A stretch of 64,000 nt of DNA from Gammaproteobacteria bacterium (GTDB lineage: Bacteria > Pseudomonadota > Gammaproteobacteria > Chromatiales > Chromatiaceae), in the NCBI GenBank assembly GCA_020445415.1, contig JAGRGP010000026.1, forward strand, positions 1-64,000, in the 5' to 3' direction. The position numbers were made by a program, and so were the translations under genes. The notes beneath the pieces are model-generated. The model had not been told where the DNA came from, made no database searches, and was given only the letters and a program-made list of their open reading frames with translations. Positions 18,508-42,566 of this stretch are shown here, one piece after another. How positions within the stretch are numbered: the stretch's first letter is position 1; every line of letters begins with the position of its first letter.

Positions 18508-20814
18508 TTGAATTTTAAGGGGTCGACCATAGATAGCCAACCGCACAACTCGCTTCCCCAGGAGGATTCCAGAGACTGCGCCAGACGCGAGATACTAGAC
18601 GCTCGTCAGCTATCGCAGTTATTGGATCTGCAACAGACGATTCTTGAGTCGATAACCTTGGGCAAGGGATTTTCCGCGTTGCTGCAAGCGCTTTGTCGTA
18701 TGATCGAAGCCATGATCCCGCAATCACTGGCGTCGATCATGCTATTGGATAACGACCGCAAAACAATGCGGTTCAAATCCGGGCCCTCCATTCCCGAAGA
18801 GATCATCAAGATATTTGACGGAATTCGTCCCTCCGAGAACATGGGATCCTGCAGTAACGCGATCCTGACCGGTGCGCCCGTGTTCGTTTCCGATGTTCCC
18901 TCCGATCCCCGCTGGGACGGCGTCCGCCAGCTTGCCGCTGCACATCGGATAGGCTCCTGTTGGTCGATACCCATATTTGCCGAAAACCGATATCTATTGG
19001 GCACCTTTGCCATCACCTCCGAGCATAAGCGTGCCCCCACTCCGTTTCACACCCGCGTCCTGGATACCAGCTCTTATCTCGCCGGAATCATCATCAGAAA
19101 CTGGCAGCGGGAACAGCGATTGTTACAGTGGAATGCGGTATTCGACAATGCCTCCGAAGGCATGGTTATTACAGACATCAATGGCCTGATCATCGACGTA
19201 AACCAGTCTTTCACTAAGATTACCGGCTATACCCCGGATGAAGTTAAAGGACGCACACCTCATGTGCTGAATTCCGGCAAGCACGACAAGTCTTTTTTCC
19301 AAGCATTGTGGGCCAGTCTGGCTGAGACAGGCCGGTGGCAAGGAGAGATCTGGAACCGGCGCAAGAGCGGAGATGTCTATCCCGAGTGGCTAAGCGTCTC
19401 CCGGATCCAGAACCGGGAGGGCGAGACTTGCAACTATGTTGGGGTCTTCTCGGATATCAGCAGCCTCAAGGAGTCGGAACGCAAACTTTACCACATGGCT
19501 CATCACGATCCGCTAACCGGACTCCCCAATCGGCTGCTGATGACCGCCAGGCTTGAGCATGCCATCGGCCAGGCGAAACGAAACCCGGCCCGCCTGGCGG
19601 TGCTGTTTCTTGATCTCGACCGGTTCAAAAACATCAATGATGCTTACGGCCATGAGATAGGCGACCAGCTGCTGGTTAATGTTGCCTCCCGCCTCAAGGT
19701 GCGTCTGCGAGAGCAAGATACCATTGCGCGGCTTGGTGGCGACGAATTTGTGGTTATCCTCGAGCAGATTCAGAGCGCCGACTGTGCCATGACCATAGCC
19801 TCATCCTTCATCGAATCACTGAGCCGGCCATTCAATCTAGTCAATAACGAAGTGTATGCCACTCCCAGTATCGGCATCGCGATGTATCCCGAGGATGGCA
19901 CCGAATCCGACACATTGATCAAAAATGCCGATATCGCCATGTATCGCGCCAAGGAACAGGGGCGTCACCGGTATTGTCTGTACACCCCAACGCTCTCCAG
20001 TCGGCTGGAGCACCGTCTCTCCTATGAGACGCTGCTGAGACGGGCCTTGGAGCGCAATGAATTTCAGCTCTTTTATCAACCTCAGGTGCGCGCAGTCGAC
20101 CGTAAGATCCTGGGTGCCGAGGTGTTGCTGCGCTGGCATCATCCAGAACAGGGATTGCAGTTACCGGGGATGTTTATTCCCGTGTTGGAAGAAGCGGATC
20201 TCATGGATGAGGTTGGCAATTGGGTCCTCAACAGTGCCTGTCAACAGCTACGGGAATGGCGGCAAAAAGGTCTGCCCCAGATCAGGTTGGCGGTCAATCT
20301 TTCAGCTAAACAGATATCTCCTGGGTACATACGGGATCAGCTTCCGGCCCTGTTATCTCAATACCAACTGGGCCCACAATGCTTGGAACTCGAGATTACC
20401 GAGCACAACATCATGGAAAGCGGTGAACAGGCCACGCAATTAATAGCGAGCCTGCGGGATCTCGGTATAAGCCTGGCTATCGACGATTTCGGTACCGGCT
20501 ATTCATCCCTCGCGAGACTAAAGCGGCTGCCGGTGCATTGTCTCAAGATTGACCGTTCGTTAGTCCGTGACATCCCGCTCGACACCAATGATCAGGCAAT
20601 CTGCCGTGCTGTGGTAGCCCTCGGACATAGCCTGGGAATCCGTATCGTCGCCGAGGGTGTGGAAGTGGAAGAACAGGCGGATTTTCTTCTGCAGATAAAC
20701 TGCGACGAGCTCCAAGGCTATCTATATGGCCGCCCGATGGAAAGCGGGGAATTCGAACATCTGCTCCGCCGCCAACTCTCCACAGCATCAAGCAGACCGG
20801 TAACGTGCCGCTAG
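18508..20814 (+). CDS. GAF-PAS-GGDEF-EAL cyclic-di-GMP protein
   Basis: 768 residues counted from a TTG at 18508. A GAF domain (about 35-190) is followed by a PAS domain with a PAC tail (about 205-320). The GGDEF domain keeps GGDEF at about 410-414 and the inhibitory-site motif REQD five residues before it. The EAL domain (about 515-765) has EVLLRW in place of EALLRW, DDFGTGYSS, EGVE and LQGYLYGRP. Both catalytic domains therefore look competent, making it a dual-domain c-di-GMP enzyme controlled by two N-terminal sensor domains. There is no membrane segment. The start is unusual: an AAGGGG ribosome site sits 6 nt before an in-frame ATA at 18529, while the TTG lacks one. The 3' end overlaps the convergent carbonic anhydrase gene by 27 bp. 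Confidence 0.93.
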   Translation: MNFKGSTIDSQPHNSLPQEDSRDCARREILDARQLSQLLDLQQTILESITLGKGFSALLQALCRMIEAMIPQSLASIMLLDNDRKTMRFKSGPSIPEEIIKIFDGIRPSENMGSCSNAILTGAPVFVSDVPSDPRWDGVRQLAAAHRIGSCWSIPIFAENRYLLGTFAITSEHKRAPTPFHTRVLDTSSYLAGIIIRNWQREQRLLQWNAVFDNASEGMVITDINGLIIDVNQSFTKITGYTPDEVKGRTPHVLNSGKHDKSFFQALWASLAETGRWQGEIWNRRKSGDVYPEWLSVSRIQNREGETCNYVGVFSDISSLKESERKLYHMAHHDPLTGLPNRLLMTARLEHAIGQAKRNPARLAVLFLDLDRFKNINDAYGHEIGDQLLVNVASRLKVRLREQDTIARLGGDEFVVILEQIQSADCAMTIASSFIESLSRPFNLVNNEVYATPSIGIAMYPEDGTESDTLIKNADIAMYRAKEQGRHRYCLYTPTLSSRLEHRLSYETLLRRALERNEFQLFYQPQVRAVDRKILGAEVLLRWHHPEQGLQLPGMFIPVLEEADLMDEVGNWVLNSACQQLREWRQKGLPQIRLAVNLSAKQISPGYIRDQLPALLSQYQLGPQCLELEITEHNIMESGEQATQLIASLRDLGISLAIDDFGTGYSSLARLKRLPVHCLKIDRSLVRDIPLDTNDQAICRAVVALGHSLGIRIVAEGVEVEEQADFLLQINCDELQGYLYGRPMESGEFEHLLRRQLSTASSRPVTCR

Positions 20815-34467: not shown

Positions 34468-35202
34468 CTAGACGGCGCCCTCCTTTAGCCAGCGGCGGAT
34501 CTGGGGTAGATGACGCCGACTTATCTCCAGCTGCTCTTCGGTATCTTCTAGGCGCGCCATACAGCGCCCGTCGGGGCGTTTTTCTAGCCCGATCAGCCGT
34601 GACCGGGAAACCAGCGCATTACGGTGAATACGGAAAAACTTGTCGCCGAATTGCCGTTCCAGCGCCTTGAGAGATCCCTCCAGCAGCGCCTCACCATCAG
34701 CACAGACCGCGGCCACATACTTCTGGTCCGCGCGTAGGAAGATGACGTCGTCAACCGGGATACGTTTTATACCGCCCCGGTAATTGGTACTCAGATAAGC
34801 CGGCACTGCCGGTTTCCGGTGGAGTGCCTGAAGCTGCGCCCGGGTGGGTGCGCCAGCCCGAACCAGGGACTTTTCCAACCGCTGCCGGCGAATGGGCTTG
34901 AGGAGATAGTCGACTGCGCTGCCCTGAAATGCCGCTAACGCATGCTCCTCATAAGCGGTCACGAATATGACCGCGGGGGGTATCCTCGCTTCTGCTAATT
35001 GTGCCGCTGCCTCGATACCGTCCATCTCGGGCATGCGTACATCCATAAGAACCAGATCGACCTCCAGCTTACGGCATAGCGCCAAGGCCTCGCGTCCGTT
35101 GGCGGCCTCTCCCACCAATCGGTAGGGAGGGCCGATTTCCGCCAGCAGGGCGCACAACCGCTGTCTGGCGAGAAGCTCATCATCCACAATCAATATGTTC
35201 AT
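34468..35202 (-). CDS. algR: AlgR-like LytTR response regulator
   Basis: 244 residues from the ATG at 35202, which overlaps the kinase stop (ATGA). The receiver domain has VDDE, the phosphoacceptor in VLMDVRMPEMDG and the lysine in YLLKPI. A LytTR DNA-binding domain follows (about 135-240) with FLRADQKYVAAVCADG and FFRIHRNALVSRSRLIG. This is the AlgR/LytR/AgrA type, which binds DNA through beta strands. In Pseudomonas AlgR controls alginate and type IV pili; here the targets are unknown and only the architecture and gene order support the name. Confidence 0.92.
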   Translation of the reverse strand: MNILIVDDELLARQRLCALLAEIGPPYRLVGEAANGREALALCRKLEVDLVLMDVRMPEMDGIEAAAQLAEARIPPAVIFVTAYEEHALAAFQGSAVDYLLKPIRRQRLEKSLVRAGAPTRAQLQALHRKPAVPAYLSTNYRGGIKRIPVDDVIFLRADQKYVAAVCADGEALLEGSLKALERQFGDKFFRIHRNALVSRSRLIGLEKRPDGRCMARLEDTEEQLEISRRHLPQIRRWLKEGAV

Positions 35203-36257
35203 TCTTCCACCCAAGGATAGGGGAAGGTCAGGCGAACCTGATACTCCCCGTCCACCTCACCGATGATCAAATTTGCTTCGCCATCAAAAAAACCCTGAAG
35301 CCGCTGGCGGATGTTCTCGACCGCCATCGCGTTACCTTCCCGACGTCTGTCTCCGGCGTTCACCGGCACGGTATTGCGTATACTGATATTGACCCGCCTC
35401 CGGCGGTACCTCCCACTGACATGGATCACCCCCTGGCCGACGCTGGGTTCAACCCCATGGTAGACCGCGTTTTCAAATAACGGTTGAAGTATCAGCGCGG
35501 GCAACGGCGCCTCATCTGGCAATGGCTCGAGATCCCACTCAACCTCGAGCCGATCTCCCAGCCGTTGTTGTTCGATACGGAGATAGCCCCGCACCAACTC
35601 GATCTCGTCACCCAGCGTGGAGAGCCGCTGGCTGTTACCAAGACTGGCACGAAACAGATCGGAAAGATCCTCTACCACCGCTTCCGCCAACGCGGGATCG
35701 GTGCGGGTAAGCTGGGCTATGGTGTTCATACTGTTGAACAGGAAGTGAGGGCGGATGCGAGATTGCAGTGCCTGAAATCGAGCCTCGGACTCTGCCTCTA
35801 CCTGCTGCCGCCAAAGATACTGTATGTATAGATACCGGAGTAACAGAGCTGCCATGATGGCGCTGATGCCCAAGCTTTCCACTATAAATAGCAACCCGCT
35901 GGCTGAATTCAGGGGCCAGCCAAGTAGCGCCAGCGCGCACAACGCCGCAAACAGGGTTACCCCCAAGAGCAGCAGCCAGGACAGCACACCCGCCATGCTG
36001 TTTCCTAGGCGACGAATCCGAGGTCCGGCCATGCAAAGTAGGGCCGCCCCGAACAACGCAATCCACTGGATGAGCAGCGAGCGCATGCTCAGTTCGGAAT
36101 AAAAACTATCCATCGAACGCAGCGATCCCAGAGTCAACACCACGGCCAGCAGCTCGGCGCTGATGACTACCGCGAACACCATTCTGATACTGCAAAAATT
36201 GGGCAGGAACGAACCCGTGGCCCGCTCCTTACTCGACTGGGTATCCAGTTTGGCCAT
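35199..36257 (-). CDS. algZ: AlgZ/FimS-like LytS-family histidine kinase
   Basis: 352 residues. Four membrane helices span about 25-145 in two pairs. The LytS-type His-kinase region has the phosphoacceptor in QSRIRPHFLFNSMNTIAQL, followed by an atypical HATPase in which the N-box is in LILQPLFENAVYHG; the usual DxGxG box is weak. This matches FimS/AlgZ kinases. It is coupled to the algR-like gene and diverges from argH, as in Pseudomonas (argH-algZ-algR-hemC). AGGAGG lies 11 nt before the start. Confidence 0.92.
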   Translation of the reverse strand: MAKLDTQSSKERATGSFLPNFCSIRMVFAVVISAELLAVVLTLGSLRSMDSFYSELSMRSLLIQWIALFGAALLCMAGPRIRRLGNSMAGVLSWLLLLGVTLFAALCALALLGWPLNSASGLLFIVESLGISAIMAALLLRYLYIQYLWRQQVEAESEARFQALQSRIRPHFLFNSMNTIAQLTRTDPALAEAVVEDLSDLFRASLGNSQRLSTLGDEIELVRGYLRIEQQRLGDRLEVEWDLEPLPDEAPLPALILQPLFENAVYHGVEPSVGQGVIHVSGRYRRRRVNISIRNTVPVNAGDRRREGNAMAVENIRQRLQGFFDGEANLIIGEVDGEYQVRLTFPYPWVEE

Positions 36258-36440: not shown

Positions 36441-37823
36441 ATGAACGACAGCAAACTCTGGTCCGGCCGCTTCAACCAACCTACCGACGCGTTTGTCGAA
36501 GCGTTTACCGCTTCGGTGGCGTTTGATCAGCGGCTGTATCATTACGATATCCAGGGCTCAATCGCCCATGCGCGCATGCTGGCTCGTCAGGGTATCATCA
36601 GCGAACGGGAGAGCAAGGATATCGTTACGGGGCTGGAACGGATTTTGTCCCGCATCGAGTCGGGCGGCTTTGCATGGTCAATCGTCCAAGAAGACGTCCA
36701 CATGAATATCGAGTCCGCCCTTACGGCGGAAATTGGCGCTGCCGGTAAGAAACTGCACACCGGACGTTCCCGTAATGATCAGGTTGCTACCGACATCCGG
36801 CTCTGGTTGCGGGACGAAATCGGTGAACTGCGTCAGGCCATCCTGAGGTTGCAACAGGCCTTGCTGGATCTGGCAGAGCGAGAGGCGGACACCATCATGC
36901 CTGGATTTACCCACCTCCAAACCGCCCAGCCAGTGACGTTCGGGCACCATATGATGGCCTGGTTCGAGATGTTGCAAAGAGACCGAGAGCGGCTCGCCGA
37001 TTGCAACAAGCGGGTCAACACCTTGCCGCTGGGCGCTGCGGCATTGGCCGGCACAACCTATCCAATCGACCGTGACTATACCGCCCAGTTATTGGGATTT
37101 GAACGTCTGGCGGAGAACTCTCTGGATGCCGTCAGTGACCGGGATTTTGCCATAGAATTCACTGCCGCGGCGGCCCTGACCATGATGCATTTGTCGCGTA
37201 TGTCCGAAGAGTTGATCATCTGGTCTTCAGCCCAGTTCGCCTTCATTGAACTCTCCGACAGCTTCTGTACCGGCTCATCCATCATGCCGCAGAAGAAGAA
37301 CCCTGATGTGCCCGAACTCATTCGCGGAAAAAGCGGACGCATCTTTGGCCATCTGATCAGCCTACTGACCTTAATGAAGGGTCAACCACTTGCCTATAAC
37401 AAGGATAATCAAGAAGATAAAGAACCACTATTCGACACCGTTGACAACCTGAAGGGGTCCCTCAGGATCTTCGCCGACATGGTTCCGGCGATCAGTTGCC
37501 GCAAAGATGCCATGCGAGCGGCGGCACTGAAGGGTTTTGCTACCGCTACCGATCTGGCAGATTACCTGGTACGCCTTGGCCTTCCGTTTCGGGATGCCCA
37601 TGAAGTGGTTGGGCGAGCGGTTTCTTTGTGCGTGGAAAAACGTTGCGATCTAACACAACTCTCCCTTGAGGAGCTGCAAGGATTTTCCAACCTGATCCGA
37701 GAGGATGTGTTTCAGGTACTGACACTGGAAGGCTCGGTTGCCGCCCGCAATCACCGGGGAGCCACCGCCCCTGACCAGGTTCGAGCAGCCGTGAAACAGG
37801 GCCGGGAACGCCTAACTTGTTAG
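36441..37823 (+). CDS. argH: Argininosuccinate lyase
   Basis: 460 residues. It begins [25 protein letters not shown]. The fumarase/aspartase superfamily signature is [20 protein letters not shown], the family boxes [13 protein letters not shown] and [16 protein letters not shown] are intact, and the catalytic serine lies in the signature loop. It splits argininosuccinate to arginine and fumarate. It diverges from algZ and is followed 36 bp later by a MazG-like gene. Confidence 0.97.
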
Positions 37824-37859
37824 CCATGCTGCATTTCTGGAGTGCGGAGGAGTTGGATC

Positions 37860-38231
37860 ATGCATAACGACTGTCTCGACGGATTGAGTCAGCGCCTGCG
37901 GGAATTTGCCAGGCAGCGGGACTGGGAGCAGTTTCACTCGCCCAAGAATCTCTCCATGGCCATGATCGCCGAGTGCGCTGAACTGGTAGAGCATTTCCAG
38001 TGGCTCAGTGAGGAGCAGAGCATGTCCCTACCCGCGCAGAAGAAAACCGAGGTGGCCCTGGAACTGGCTGACATCTTGATCTATTTGGTACGTTGCGCCG
38101 AGCGTTTGGATATCGACCTTGTTGCCGCCGCCTACGAAAAAATCGGCATTAATGAGCAGCGATATCCGGTTGCTAGGGTGTTCGGTGACGCCAGACGGGC
38201 CGATGAATATCCACCGGAAGAGGAAAATTAA
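37860..38231 (+). CDS. MazG-like nucleotide pyrophosphohydrolase (RS21-C6/dCTPase type)
   Basis: 123 residues from the ATG at 37860, which has GGAGGAG 7 nt upstream; an ATG at 37842 would overlap that site. It is all-helical with the MazG metal site: MIAECAELVEHFQW (E-x2-E pair) and EVALELADILIYLVRCAERL (E-x2-D pair). RS21-C6/XTP3-TPA-type members hydrolyse dCTP and modified dNTPs to monophosphates as house-cleaning enzymes. The acidic C-terminus EYPPEEEN overlaps the convergent unknown gene by 4 bp. Confidence 0.88.
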   Translation: MHNDCLDGLSQRLREFARQRDWEQFHSPKNLSMAMIAECAELVEHFQWLSEEQSMSLPAQKKTEVALELADILIYLVRCAERLDIDLVAAAYEKIGINEQRYPVARVFGDARRADEYPPEEEN

Positions 38232-38861: not shown

Positions 38862-39698
38862 TTGAGCATAAGCGGCGACTTAGCAGAAACTTGGCTGAAT
38901 AGCTGTCCCTGTGGTGCCTTGTCCCTGGATGATCAGGGGAAGATTCAGTACCTCAATCCGGCACTGGAAAAGATGCTGGACATCTCCGCTGCACAGCTAG
39001 TCGGGCTCAGCCCGTCAAGCGCGTGTCCACCCCTTCCCAAAGGCCTGTTCGAGGCAAGCGGGCTGCTGCAGTTGACAGGTCCCGAAGCCGGGCGTGAGCG
39101 CTGGCTTGATTGCAGCGTGCACCCTAGCGGACCGGGCCGCGCCGCAATCCATTTTTTTGTCGATGTCACGGAACTGGTAACCCTCCGCAGAGATAGGCTG
39201 AAACTCCAGCAACAGGTAGAAGACCTCACTATCACGGATGAGCTTACCGGACTGGCCAACCAGCGGGCGTTAAACCGAGCGCTGAGTGCCCAGGTAACCC
39301 GAAGCCGAAGGTACCAAAATCCACTCAGCCTCGCGCTACTTGAAATCACGGAAACGAATGGAACTCAAGCTGATTTGTCTGACGACACAATCCTGGCCGC
39401 TAGCCGATTTCTACGGGATCGCTTCCGCTGGGTCGACGTGATTGCCCGCTGGGACAACAACCACTTCGTCATTATCCTTCCCGAAACCAACCACGAACAG
39501 GCTGTTGACCTGATCTCCGGTATCAGCCGGGGTTTTGGTGAGCTTGAGCTCAACGACCTGGGGCACCACCACCCCCTGGTATTGCGCTACGGGATCGCCC
39601 AATGGCTGAAAGGCAACGACACGAGAATTCTAATGGAGCGCGCCGCCGAAAGCCTGACGTCCTTTGGCCTGGGTACCCAGTCAGCACTCATTAACTGA
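38862..39698 (+). CDS. PAS protein with degenerate GGDEF domain, coupled to cyaA
   Basis: 278 residues from a TTG at 38862, preceded by a strong AAGGAAGGAG site 7 nt away. A PAS domain (about 10-110; KIQYLNPALEKMLDIS) is joined to a GGDEF-fold domain (about 125-275; ITDELTGLANQRALNRAL). The active-site motif reads DNNHF (198-202) instead of GGDEF, so diguanylate cyclase activity should be lost. The inhibitory-site motif RWVD (189-192) stands exactly five residues before it, as in active enzymes, so it may still bind c-di-GMP. Cytosolic, no membrane helix. cyaA starts 3 bp after the stop, indicating translational coupling. Confidence 0.9.
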   Translation: MSISGDLAETWLNSCPCGALSLDDQGKIQYLNPALEKMLDISAAQLVGLSPSSACPPLPKGLFEASGLLQLTGPEAGRERWLDCSVHPSGPGRAAIHFFVDVTELVTLRRDRLKLQQQVEDLTITDELTGLANQRALNRALSAQVTRSRRYQNPLSLALLEITETNGTQADLSDDTILAASRFLRDRFRWVDVIARWDNNHFVIILPETNHEQAVDLISGISRGFGELELNDLGHHHPLVLRYGIAQWLKGNDTRILMERAAESLTSFGLGTQSALIN

Positions 39699-39701
39699 TG
39701 C

Positions 39702-42566
39702 ATGGCTACCCCTTTAACCTTCAAGGATGGCATCGGCCGCAAGGATCTGCAGACCATCAAGCGGCGTTTTGTGGCGATCCATCGGGAACGACTGCAACGT
39801 ATTGAGGGTGAGCTATTGCCCGGCCAGCGGGTGCTGCTGCAACTACTGCCACTGCTCTTTCATATCAATCATCCGATGTTACCGGGGTTCTCTGGCACTG
39901 ATACCCCATCTGGGATACCAGACTATTCTCCCGGCAAGGTCCAGCTCCAAACGGCCAAGAGGCTGAGCCGAAGCTTCGAGTACCAGAAACGCGCCCGGCG
40001 CCGATTTCAGATCCAGGGGCTCTACCTCATGGGGAGTATCGGCAGCGTCGCGCATACCGCCGGCAGTGATCTCGACGTCTGGCTTTGTCATGACCCAACC
40101 CTGAGTCAAGGGTCCTTGCAATCATTGCGCACCAAATCTCGACGGATAGAGAATTGGGGTAAGGAACTGGGGCTGGAGGTGCATATCTTCATTATGAATG
40201 TGGAGGATTTCCGGCAAGGCAAGCGGGATACCCTCTCTCACGAGAGCAGTGGCAGTACCCAACGGCGGCTCCTGCTGGAGGAATTCTACCGCACCGGTGT
40301 GCTGTTGGCGGGCCGCTACCCCCTGTGGTGGCTGGTGCCCCCGGACCAGGAGGCGGAATATAGCACCTACGCCGAGATGCTGCTCCACAAACGATTTGTG
40401 GAACGCATCGACTGTCTCGACTTCGGTGGCCTGGAAAGTCTCTCCGCAGATGAATTTTTTGGCGCGGCCCACTGGCAACTCTACAAGGGAATCGAATCAC
40501 CTTATAAAACCATCCTAAAGCTACTCCTGAGCGAAGCTTATTCTCGCGAATACCCTAAGGTACGCTGGTTGTGCCAAGAGGCTAAAGCGGCGATATACGA
40601 AGGACAAACCGACTTGGACGAGCTGGACCCTTACGTGTTGATGTATCGTCGGCTTGCCCAATATCTCGGTGATGGCAAGAGCAATAAACGTCTGGAGCTG
40701 GCCCGCCGCTGCTTCTATTTCAAGACCGAACAGAAGCTGAGCCTCATGACAATGGGGCAGTCCCATTCCTGGCAATGGCGGCTGATGCAGCAACTGACTC
40801 AGGAATGGGGATGGAGCCATGAACTGCTTGCCATTCTGGATGACCGTGAGCACTGGAAGATCGACCGGGTGCTGGAGGAACGAAATACCCTGGTAAAGGA
40901 GCTTTCCGACAGTTTCAGGCTGCTCACGGATTTTGCCAGAACCTATGCCGGAGACAGCGACATCGATCCGGAAGAACTGAGCCTACTCGGCAGAAAGCTC
41001 TACACCGCTTTGGAAAAACGGCCGGGGAAGATTGACAGCATCAATCCTGGGATTTCAAAGAGCCTGGAGGAACCGCGCGTCTCTCTGCATTACCGGCCAC
41101 TGGGCGACGATCAAGGTTGGCTGCTGTTCCTCGGTGAAATCACTGCCGAGCAGGCACTGGTTACAAATCCTATCAAGAGCACCGGTGGTCTTATCGAGAT
41201 GCTGACCTGGTGCCACGTCAATAAGGTCATCGGACCAGCGACCAGGGTCATCCTTTACCCCGAGGCTTGTCCGGTCAGAGCGGACGAATTGCGTTCGCTG
41301 CTCGGTTGTCTGCGGCAAATCTATCCTTGCGGGGCCTTATCCGAAGTCCCGATGGATCAGCTGTCAGCCCAACCTCAGGCGCTTGCCTGCACGCTGTTCG
41401 TAAATACCGGCACCGACCCGATGCATCGGCTCTCCAAGCAGGGCAAACAGCTTACCAGCAACCGCTGCGATCCCTTGAGCTTCGGTGCCGCCCATGCGTC
41501 CCTGGTTGGGGTAGTGGAACAACTCGTAACCACCAGCTGGGGAGAAACGCTGGTGTTCAGCTACCAGGGATCCGAGGGATTGCTGGACGGCCTCTGCCAC
41601 TATCTTCAGTTGACCGTAGTGCGAGGGAAGGGCGATCCACCACCCCAGGTAACCGCTCACAGCTTTTCGTCGGTGAGATCGGCCGGAATTGCCCGCCGCG
41701 TGGCGGAACTCTACAACGATGTATGTGCCGCCTTTCATCGCAAGGGTATGGGCCTGAATTGCCGCTATGTCCTGCAATTGGAAGACGAATACTACATGAT
41801 CCGGTATCGGGACGGCCGATTTGGTTACGATCCCATTCCATCCCTGGATGAATTGCTCGAAATCTTGGGAACGGCGCGTTACCGCTTCTCACCGGTTGTA
41901 ATCGACCGGATGGCACTGCGCGATACCCCGTACCCGGCTATCTTCCAACACAACCGGGAGGGCACCATACAGCTTTTCTATCATAACGAGCGAGGCAAGA
42001 CGCTACTCTACGTGCTCGATGAACAGGGTGCCCTGCTCACTCAACAGTTACCGGCCACCGACGAACATTATCTGCTCCTTCAGCAACAGCGCTTTCTCAA
42101 CGGGATTCGCATGATGCGCAGCCTAATGGCCGAAGAACCTGCCCACCGTCTGCTTCTCGACTCACCAGAATTTTACCAACTGACCCAAGACCGAGAGGGC
42201 CTATTCGGCACAACTCCCCGTAACCCGCCCAGGCACCGGCTCCCCGATAATTACCTAGAACTCAGGCTACTCGGTGATCGGCTGGATCTACAGGGGGCCT
42301 CTCATGTGCTGGTTTGTGGTGACCGGGAATTCACCTCGCTCGAGTACGGCGACAAACTCTACGACGCGGTTGCTCGACATATCCTCTCTCAACGGCAAAG
42401 TAAGCAACCCTACCCTATTTATCTAACTGGGCTCGAGCTCACCAGTATTTCGGGCGAGGGCGCTGCCACCACCATCCAGCTATTCGCTTTCAAGAAGCGC
42501 CTCGAAAAAAAACTGGCCACCGCCATGGACAGGTTATATCGCGAGCCCGCTGCCGCGGTATACTAA
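39702..42566 (+). CDS. cyaA: Class I adenylate cyclase
   Basis: 954 residues, somewhat longer than the E. coli enzyme. The N-terminal nucleotidyltransferase-type catalytic region has GSIGSVAHTAGSDLDVWLC (Gly111-Ser112, Asp123/Asp125), the metal-binding pattern of class I cyclases, followed by FRQGKRDTLSHESSGSTQR and LAGRYPLWWLVPP. The C-terminal half (about 550-954) is the regulatory region found in proteobacterial CyaA. It converts ATP to cAMP, the ligand of Crp/Vfr. It is coupled to the upstream PAS/degenerate-GGDEF gene, unlike its solitary position in enterics. Confidence 0.95.
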   Translation: MATPLTFKDGIGRKDLQTIKRRFVAIHRERLQRIEGELLPGQRVLLQLLPLLFHINHPMLPGFSGTDTPSGIPDYSPGKVQLQTAKRLSRSFEYQKRARRRFQIQGLYLMGSIGSVAHTAGSDLDVWLCHDPTLSQGSLQSLRTKSRRIENWGKELGLEVHIFIMNVEDFRQGKRDTLSHESSGSTQRRLLLEEFYRTGVLLAGRYPLWWLVPPDQEAEYSTYAEMLLHKRFVERIDCLDFGGLESLSADEFFGAAHWQLYKGIESPYKTILKLLLSEAYSREYPKVRWLCQEAKAAIYEGQTDLDELDPYVLMYRRLAQYLGDGKSNKRLELARRCFYFKTEQKLSLMTMGQSHSWQWRLMQQLTQEWGWSHELLAILDDREHWKIDRVLEERNTLVKELSDSFRLLTDFARTYAGDSDIDPEELSLLGRKLYTALEKRPGKIDSINPGISKSLEEPRVSLHYRPLGDDQGWLLFLGEITAEQALVTNPIKSTGGLIEMLTWCHVNKVIGPATRVILYPEACPVRADELRSLLGCLRQIYPCGALSEVPMDQLSAQPQALACTLFVNTGTDPMHRLSKQGKQLTSNRCDPLSFGAAHASLVGVVEQLVTTSWGETLVFSYQGSEGLLDGLCHYLQLTVVRGKGDPPPQVTAHSFSSVRSAGIARRVAELYNDVCAAFHRKGMGLNCRYVLQLEDEYYMIRYRDGRFGYDPIPSLDELLEILGTARYRFSPVVIDRMALRDTPYPAIFQHNREGTIQLFYHNERGKTLLYVLDEQGALLTQQLPATDEHYLLLQQQRFLNGIRMMRSLMAEEPAHRLLLDSPEFYQLTQDREGLFGTTPRNPPRHRLPDNYLELRLLGDRLDLQGASHVLVCGDREFTSLEYGDKLYDAVARHILSQRQSKQPYPIYLTGLELTSISGEGAATTIQLFAFKKRLEKKLATAMDRLYREPAAAVY

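Follow-up and report, generated by a model that had tools for sequence, protein, structure and literature searches.

Why a GGDEF protein with a degenerate active site should be encoded immediately upstream of a class I adenylate cyclase is the question raised by this locus. In the window (the whole stretch of DNA that was analyzed, 64,000 nt long), the stop codon of a PAS-GGDEF gene (TGA, 39696 to 39698) lies 3 nt ahead of the cyaA ATG at 39702, confirming the spacing given in an earlier note on this DNA. The open reading frame (38862 to 39698, plus strand) opens with a TTG preceded by a ribosome site that was rated good (AAGGAAGGAG). The features of the locus are as follows.

36441 to 37823, plus strand: argH, argininosuccinate lyase, an unrelated gene in the conserved block that serves as a control for passive synteny
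37842 to 38231, plus strand: MazG-like nucleotide pyrophosphohydrolase, found in the conserved block of many genomes
38862 to 39698, plus strand: PAS plus degenerate GGDEF protein (278 aa, TTG start), the proposed c-di-GMP receptor
38895 to 39176, plus strand: PAS domain, residues 12 to 105 (Pfam PAS_4, 8.7e-8)
39231 to 39659, plus strand: degenerate GGDEF domain, residues 124 to 266 (Pfam GGDEF, 8.6e-15)
39300 to 39314, plus strand: RSRRY, residues 147 to 151, strongly conserved in the 100-member alignment
39426 to 39437, plus strand: RWVD, the I-site motif RxxD, residues 189 to 192 (R, W, and D in 100 of 100 family members)
39453 to 39467, plus strand: DNNHF in place of GG(D/E)EF, residues 198 to 202 (0 of 100 members canonical)
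39519 to 39521, plus strand: G220, where PleD has R390, its third I-site residue (91 of 100 members have K or R here)
39702 to 42566, plus strand: cyaA, class I adenylate cyclase (954 aa), starting 3 nt past the PAS-GGDEF stop

At the active site the sequence is DNNHF, with RWVD placed exactly five residues (VIARW) ahead of it, as the earlier note had claimed; the motifs were confirmed at 39453 to 39467 and 39426 to 39437, respectively. The domain is the weakest among the 32 GGDEF matches of its genome. A second GGDEF domain within the window (19498 to 19971, plus strand), inside a 788-aa open frame, is canonical (REQDTIARLGGDEF). The PAS domain is a possible signal input, with no conserved cofactor residue evident. 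No DNA-binding domain is present in the PAS-GGDEF protein. Its best NCBIfam and PDB sequence match is SiaD of P. aeruginosa, with which it shares the GGDEF fold, but SiaD is a diguanylate cyclase and the window protein scores 68 bits, far below the SiaD family cut-off of 290. The predicted structure is weak (pLDDT 58.6, from an alignment of two sequences); the order of secondary structure and the Foldseek matches of this low-confidence model are of the PAS-GGDEF type, the matches listed being GGDEF structures. The adjoining CyaA is full length (Pfam PF12633, 1.5e-69; PF01295, 1.2e-117) and carries the SDLD of the nucleotidyltransferase motif.

Our preferred reading, to which we give somewhat less than an even chance, is that the protein is a catalytically dead, PAS-sensing c-di-GMP receptor that feeds the cAMP-CRP pathway, most likely through contact with CyaA. 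The dead GGDEF domain would bind c-di-GMP at its retained I-site, formed by RWxD and the arginines of RxRRY, and would combine this binding with a PAS-sensed signal. The result would then reach the cAMP-CRP pathway, with contact to the co-encoded CyaA as the most likely route, and would be a main input to cAMP synthesis in lineages that lack the EIIA-Glc sugar signal. We infer the binding, the contact, and the direction of its effect from sequence.

In a single protein, retention of RxxD has little meaning alone and is expected by descent. In the window's genome, RxxD stands at equal spacing in 19 of the 20 canonical GGDEF domains read by script (four further canonical domains, which the pattern misread, were left out of the count), and it is kept in three of five other GGDEF domains with degenerate active sites. 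Since the motif is near-universal in the genome's canonical domains, a freshly dead cyclase would keep it by descent. We therefore turn to the family. Seventeen orthologues were aligned, this alignment served as the query in a search of 369 gammaproteobacterial genomes, and 100 members, comprising the fetched loci and near relatives of the window protein, were aligned. None of the 100 has GG(D/E)EF, DxDxFK, or the GRN tail, and the A-site has drifted, with metal-binding D161 kept in 6%, G198 in 14%, and G199 in 9% of members. The conservation of RxxD among homologues, which the earlier note had proposed as a check, was found to be complete: R189, W190, and D192 are present in 100 of 100 members, as are R150, Y151, E208, and T209. 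Retention at the family level is informative because R, W, and D are invariant while the catalytic residues have been lost. Active-site loss and strict I-site retention are thus family traits, and loss of catalysis throughout the family is nearly certain from its sequences.

R147 and R150 of RSRRY, which we take to match the secondary I-site arginines of PleD (R313) and WspR (R198) in position, are kept in the window copy. Across the family R147 is present in 94 of 100 members and R149 in 99 of 100, so that the secondary arginine positions are retained in 94 to 100% of members. Position 220, 31 residues past R189, is K or R in 91 of 100; the exceptions, with G, Q, N, or S, are the window copy and several of its closest relatives. 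The glycine at position 220, which is not basic, is a real weakness of the window's own copy as a c-di-GMP binder. The spacing of 31 is that of the third I-site residue in SgmT (R763/R794; PMC3509222), where the window has G. SgmT of Myxococcus xanthus and PopA of Caulobacter are GGDEF proteins with degenerate A-sites that bind c-di-GMP via an intact I-site (PMC3509222). Like them, the family has lost the GGDEF motif and kept RxxD, and catalysis is not expected; the window protein shares with the PopA/SgmT type a GGDEF fold, a degenerate A-site, and RxxD five residues ahead of it. SgmT, however, is a histidine kinase and PopA a response regulator, whereas in the present family the GGDEF domain follows a lone PAS domain and the gene lies beside cyaA or crp. 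Binding of c-di-GMP at the I-site is judged likely.

The same conservation could be read differently. The protein might work with CyaA or the cAMP pathway under the control of its PAS domain, RWxD and RxRRY being kept for folding, dimerization, or another ligand rather than for c-di-GMP, an explanation that we consider rather unlikely. The Trp inside RxxD is a signature of the PAS-GGDEF family that occurs in no canonical GGDEF domain read in the window's genome, the window copy and several close relatives have lost the third I-site residue, and PET at residues 207 to 209 and W248 hardly vary either, which places part of the conservation outside the I-site. Against this, the charge required at the I-site positions defined in PleD, WspR, and SgmT is preserved in about 91 to 100% of members, whereas the catalytic positions drift freely. 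In a phylogenetic tree, the family is set apart from canonical cyclases. No family-level match was found outside Gammaproteobacteria in a sample of 299 genomes across the phylum, where the best match (9e-36) falls in the range of ordinary PAS-GGDEF cyclases. Among the relatives sampled, a close one is a metagenome-assembled genome labeled Gammaproteobacteria bacterium HKST-UBA182.

The gene pairing described in the earlier note from a single locus is conserved class-wide: class I cyaA occurs in 106 of the 369 gammaproteobacterial genomes, and a family member is directly adjacent to it in 55 of these 106. At these 55 loci, 34 members are divergent from cyaA and 21 lie co-directionally upstream, with none downstream or convergent. 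In the window's own taxonomic family, 3 to 19 nt separate the member from cyaA in 10 of 13 co-directional genomes, and in the tree the window copy falls in a clade of 14 cyaA-linked rows that has good support. The original gene order was apparently argH, a MazG-like gene (in many genomes), the GGDEF gene, and cyaA, and many lineages carry the GGDEF gene in inverted orientation. No enrichment of CRP boxes was found between divergent GGDEF and cyaA genes (mean best mismatch 3.0, compared to 3.2 in shuffles). Two genomes hold two family members each: of those in G191 (L098 and L139) one is linked to cyaA, and of those in G153 (L124 and L138) one is linked to crp, with the second copy elsewhere in both.

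It is unlikely, in our estimation, that the pairing is passive, that is, an old synteny of argH, MazG-like, GGDEF, and cyaA genes in which the protein has no function in cAMP signaling. The argH gene, which has no cAMP role, adjoins the PAS-GGDEF gene in 30 of the 54 other linked loci and also in genomes without cyaA, and because argH is conserved there, linkage alone amounts to only moderate-to-weak evidence. Yet adjacency to cyaA has survived gene inversions (34 divergent versus 21 co-directional), and the family shows a strong preference for genomes that have class I cyaA, being present in at least 76 of 106 genomes with the gene versus at least 12 of 263 without it (odds ratio about 53, from raw genome counts not corrected for phylogeny). 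A separate clade also lies beside crp in genomes whose cyaA is elsewhere. In these 13 members away from cyaA, the order is GGDEF, osmC (on the opposite strand), and crp; each such crp is the top CRP match of its genome, and one representative passes the NCBI CRP equivalog cut-off. Since these members form about one clade, the linkage resembles one relocation long kept rather than 13 independent events. This separate linkage strengthens the cAMP connection of the family, and a role of the family in the cAMP pathway is on balance probable. Co-location with cyaA or crp is observed directly, and the recurrence of the pairing points to a connection, so far undescribed, between two major signaling systems of bacteria.

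Whether CyaA itself is the target is less clear-cut. A c-di-GMP receptor could act on CRP, or on cAMP signaling downstream of any cyclase, instead of on CyaA. In addition to the 13 members beside crp, 12 genomes keep a family member although they lack an intact class I cyaA: 11 show no trace of the gene and one has fragments. Class III cyclase matches, one or more per genome, occur in all 12, and CRP in 11. In eight of the 12, the PAS-GGDEF gene lies beside argH. The persistence of the protein after loss of CyaA speaks against an exclusive partnership with CyaA and would fit an action at CRP or on more than one cyclase. We nevertheless regard this reading, in which CRP or a step downstream of any cyclase replaces CyaA as the direct target, as quite improbable; 55 members lie beside cyaA versus only 13 beside crp. 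Returning to the preferred reading, direct control of CyaA by the PAS-GGDEF protein is a plausible hypothesis. The CyaA-coupled receptor put forward in the earlier note therefore survives in part: the invariant RxxD and the linkage to cyaA speak for it, whereas an exclusive role at CyaA is weakened by the 12 genomes without intact CyaA and by the argH synteny. The idea that the protein still makes c-di-GMP despite its aberrant motif deserves almost no credence: some degenerate motifs do work, as with the active AGDEF protein VCA0965 of V. cholerae (PMC3974145), but this family has lost the metal-binding aspartates, DxDxFK, and the GRN tail besides GGDEF.

Two kinds of locus among the CyaA-less genomes can be recorded here. 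In G349 (L189/L190), the class I cyaA fragments contain in-frame TAG codons and the family member is kept beside argH. In G350 and G134, which have no class I cyaA, the members (L136 and L137) adjoin a more distant CRP/FNR-type regulator that is 29% identical to CRP, possibly a third type of neighborhood.

In E. coli, CyaA is controlled by EIIA-Glc, and to our knowledge the control of class I CyaA outside enteric bacteria is poorly known. Activation of adenylate cyclase by the PTS has been reviewed (PMC11139211). EIIA-Glc was found in two of the 106 genomes with class I cyaA, with none above the cut-off in any of the 55 cyaA-linked genomes, and the window's genome has no PF00358 (EIIA-Glc) protein, on which control of the E. 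coli type depends. Its absence does not single out the PAS-GGDEF protein, because most genomes with unlinked cyaA lack EIIA-Glc too. The proposed role resembles that of EIIA-Glc in that a separate protein would set the activity of a class I adenylate cyclase, but EIIA-Glc belongs to the sugar PTS, whereas the PAS-GGDEF protein would be responsive to c-di-GMP or to a signal sensed by its PAS domain. Each of the 80 genomes checked has nine or more GGDEF matches at 1e-20 or better, a threshold not reached by the window protein itself (8.6e-15), and c-di-GMP should therefore be available. It is conceivable, if on balance somewhat improbable, that this undescribed family of dead GGDEF proteins acts class-wide as a c-di-GMP-responsive regulator of class I CyaA, or of a cAMP-CRP step, where EIIA-Glc control is absent.

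Known connections between the two second messengers are built differently. In Pseudomonas putida, c-di-GMP lowers cAMP through FleQ repression of cyaA (PMC8125075); as in our proposal, c-di-GMP acts at cyaA, but FleQ works on transcription, whereas the PAS-GGDEF protein would work at the protein level. In Xanthomonas, the CRP-like protein Clp likewise joins c-di-GMP to the CRP regulon (PMC6637768), but there the c-di-GMP receptor is Clp itself, whereas in our proposal that part would fall to a separate protein derived from a GGDEF domain. No degenerate GGDEF gene beside clp was seen in that paper. CavA of A. baumannii was considered as a described relative and ruled out because it is a class III cyclase. 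In the open-access literature (subscription papers were not covered), we found no paper tying a GGDEF gene to cyaA by neighborhood and no direct wiring of c-di-GMP to cAMP synthesis at the protein level; knowledge of cross-regulation between c-di-GMP and cAMP has been called "extremely limited" (PMC11139211). If the reading of a class-wide regulator is true, c-di-GMP would be wired directly into cAMP signaling at the protein level in the many gammaproteobacteria that lack EIIA-Glc control. A widespread gene beside cyaA or crp, recognizable by the diagnostic combination of RWxD and a lost GGDEF, is a concrete and cheap experimental target.

Individual neighborhoods hold further detail. At L068 of genome G121 (minus strand), a long open frame raised the suspicion of a natural GGDEF-CyaA fusion, which was rejected when a stop was found to separate the two genes. 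The CyaA at this locus appears to lack the SDxD nucleotidyltransferase motif, reading GSTGELIRPRDASFRLLVV where GSxxxxxxxxSDLDVW is expected, and by its sequence this CyaA may be catalytically dead while its PAS-GGDEF partner is kept. On the far side of argH in the window, positions 35199 to 36257 (minus strand) encode a LytS-type histidine kinase (Pfam His_kinase) that adjoins argH, an arrangement that resembles the algZ/fimS-argH order of pseudomonads.
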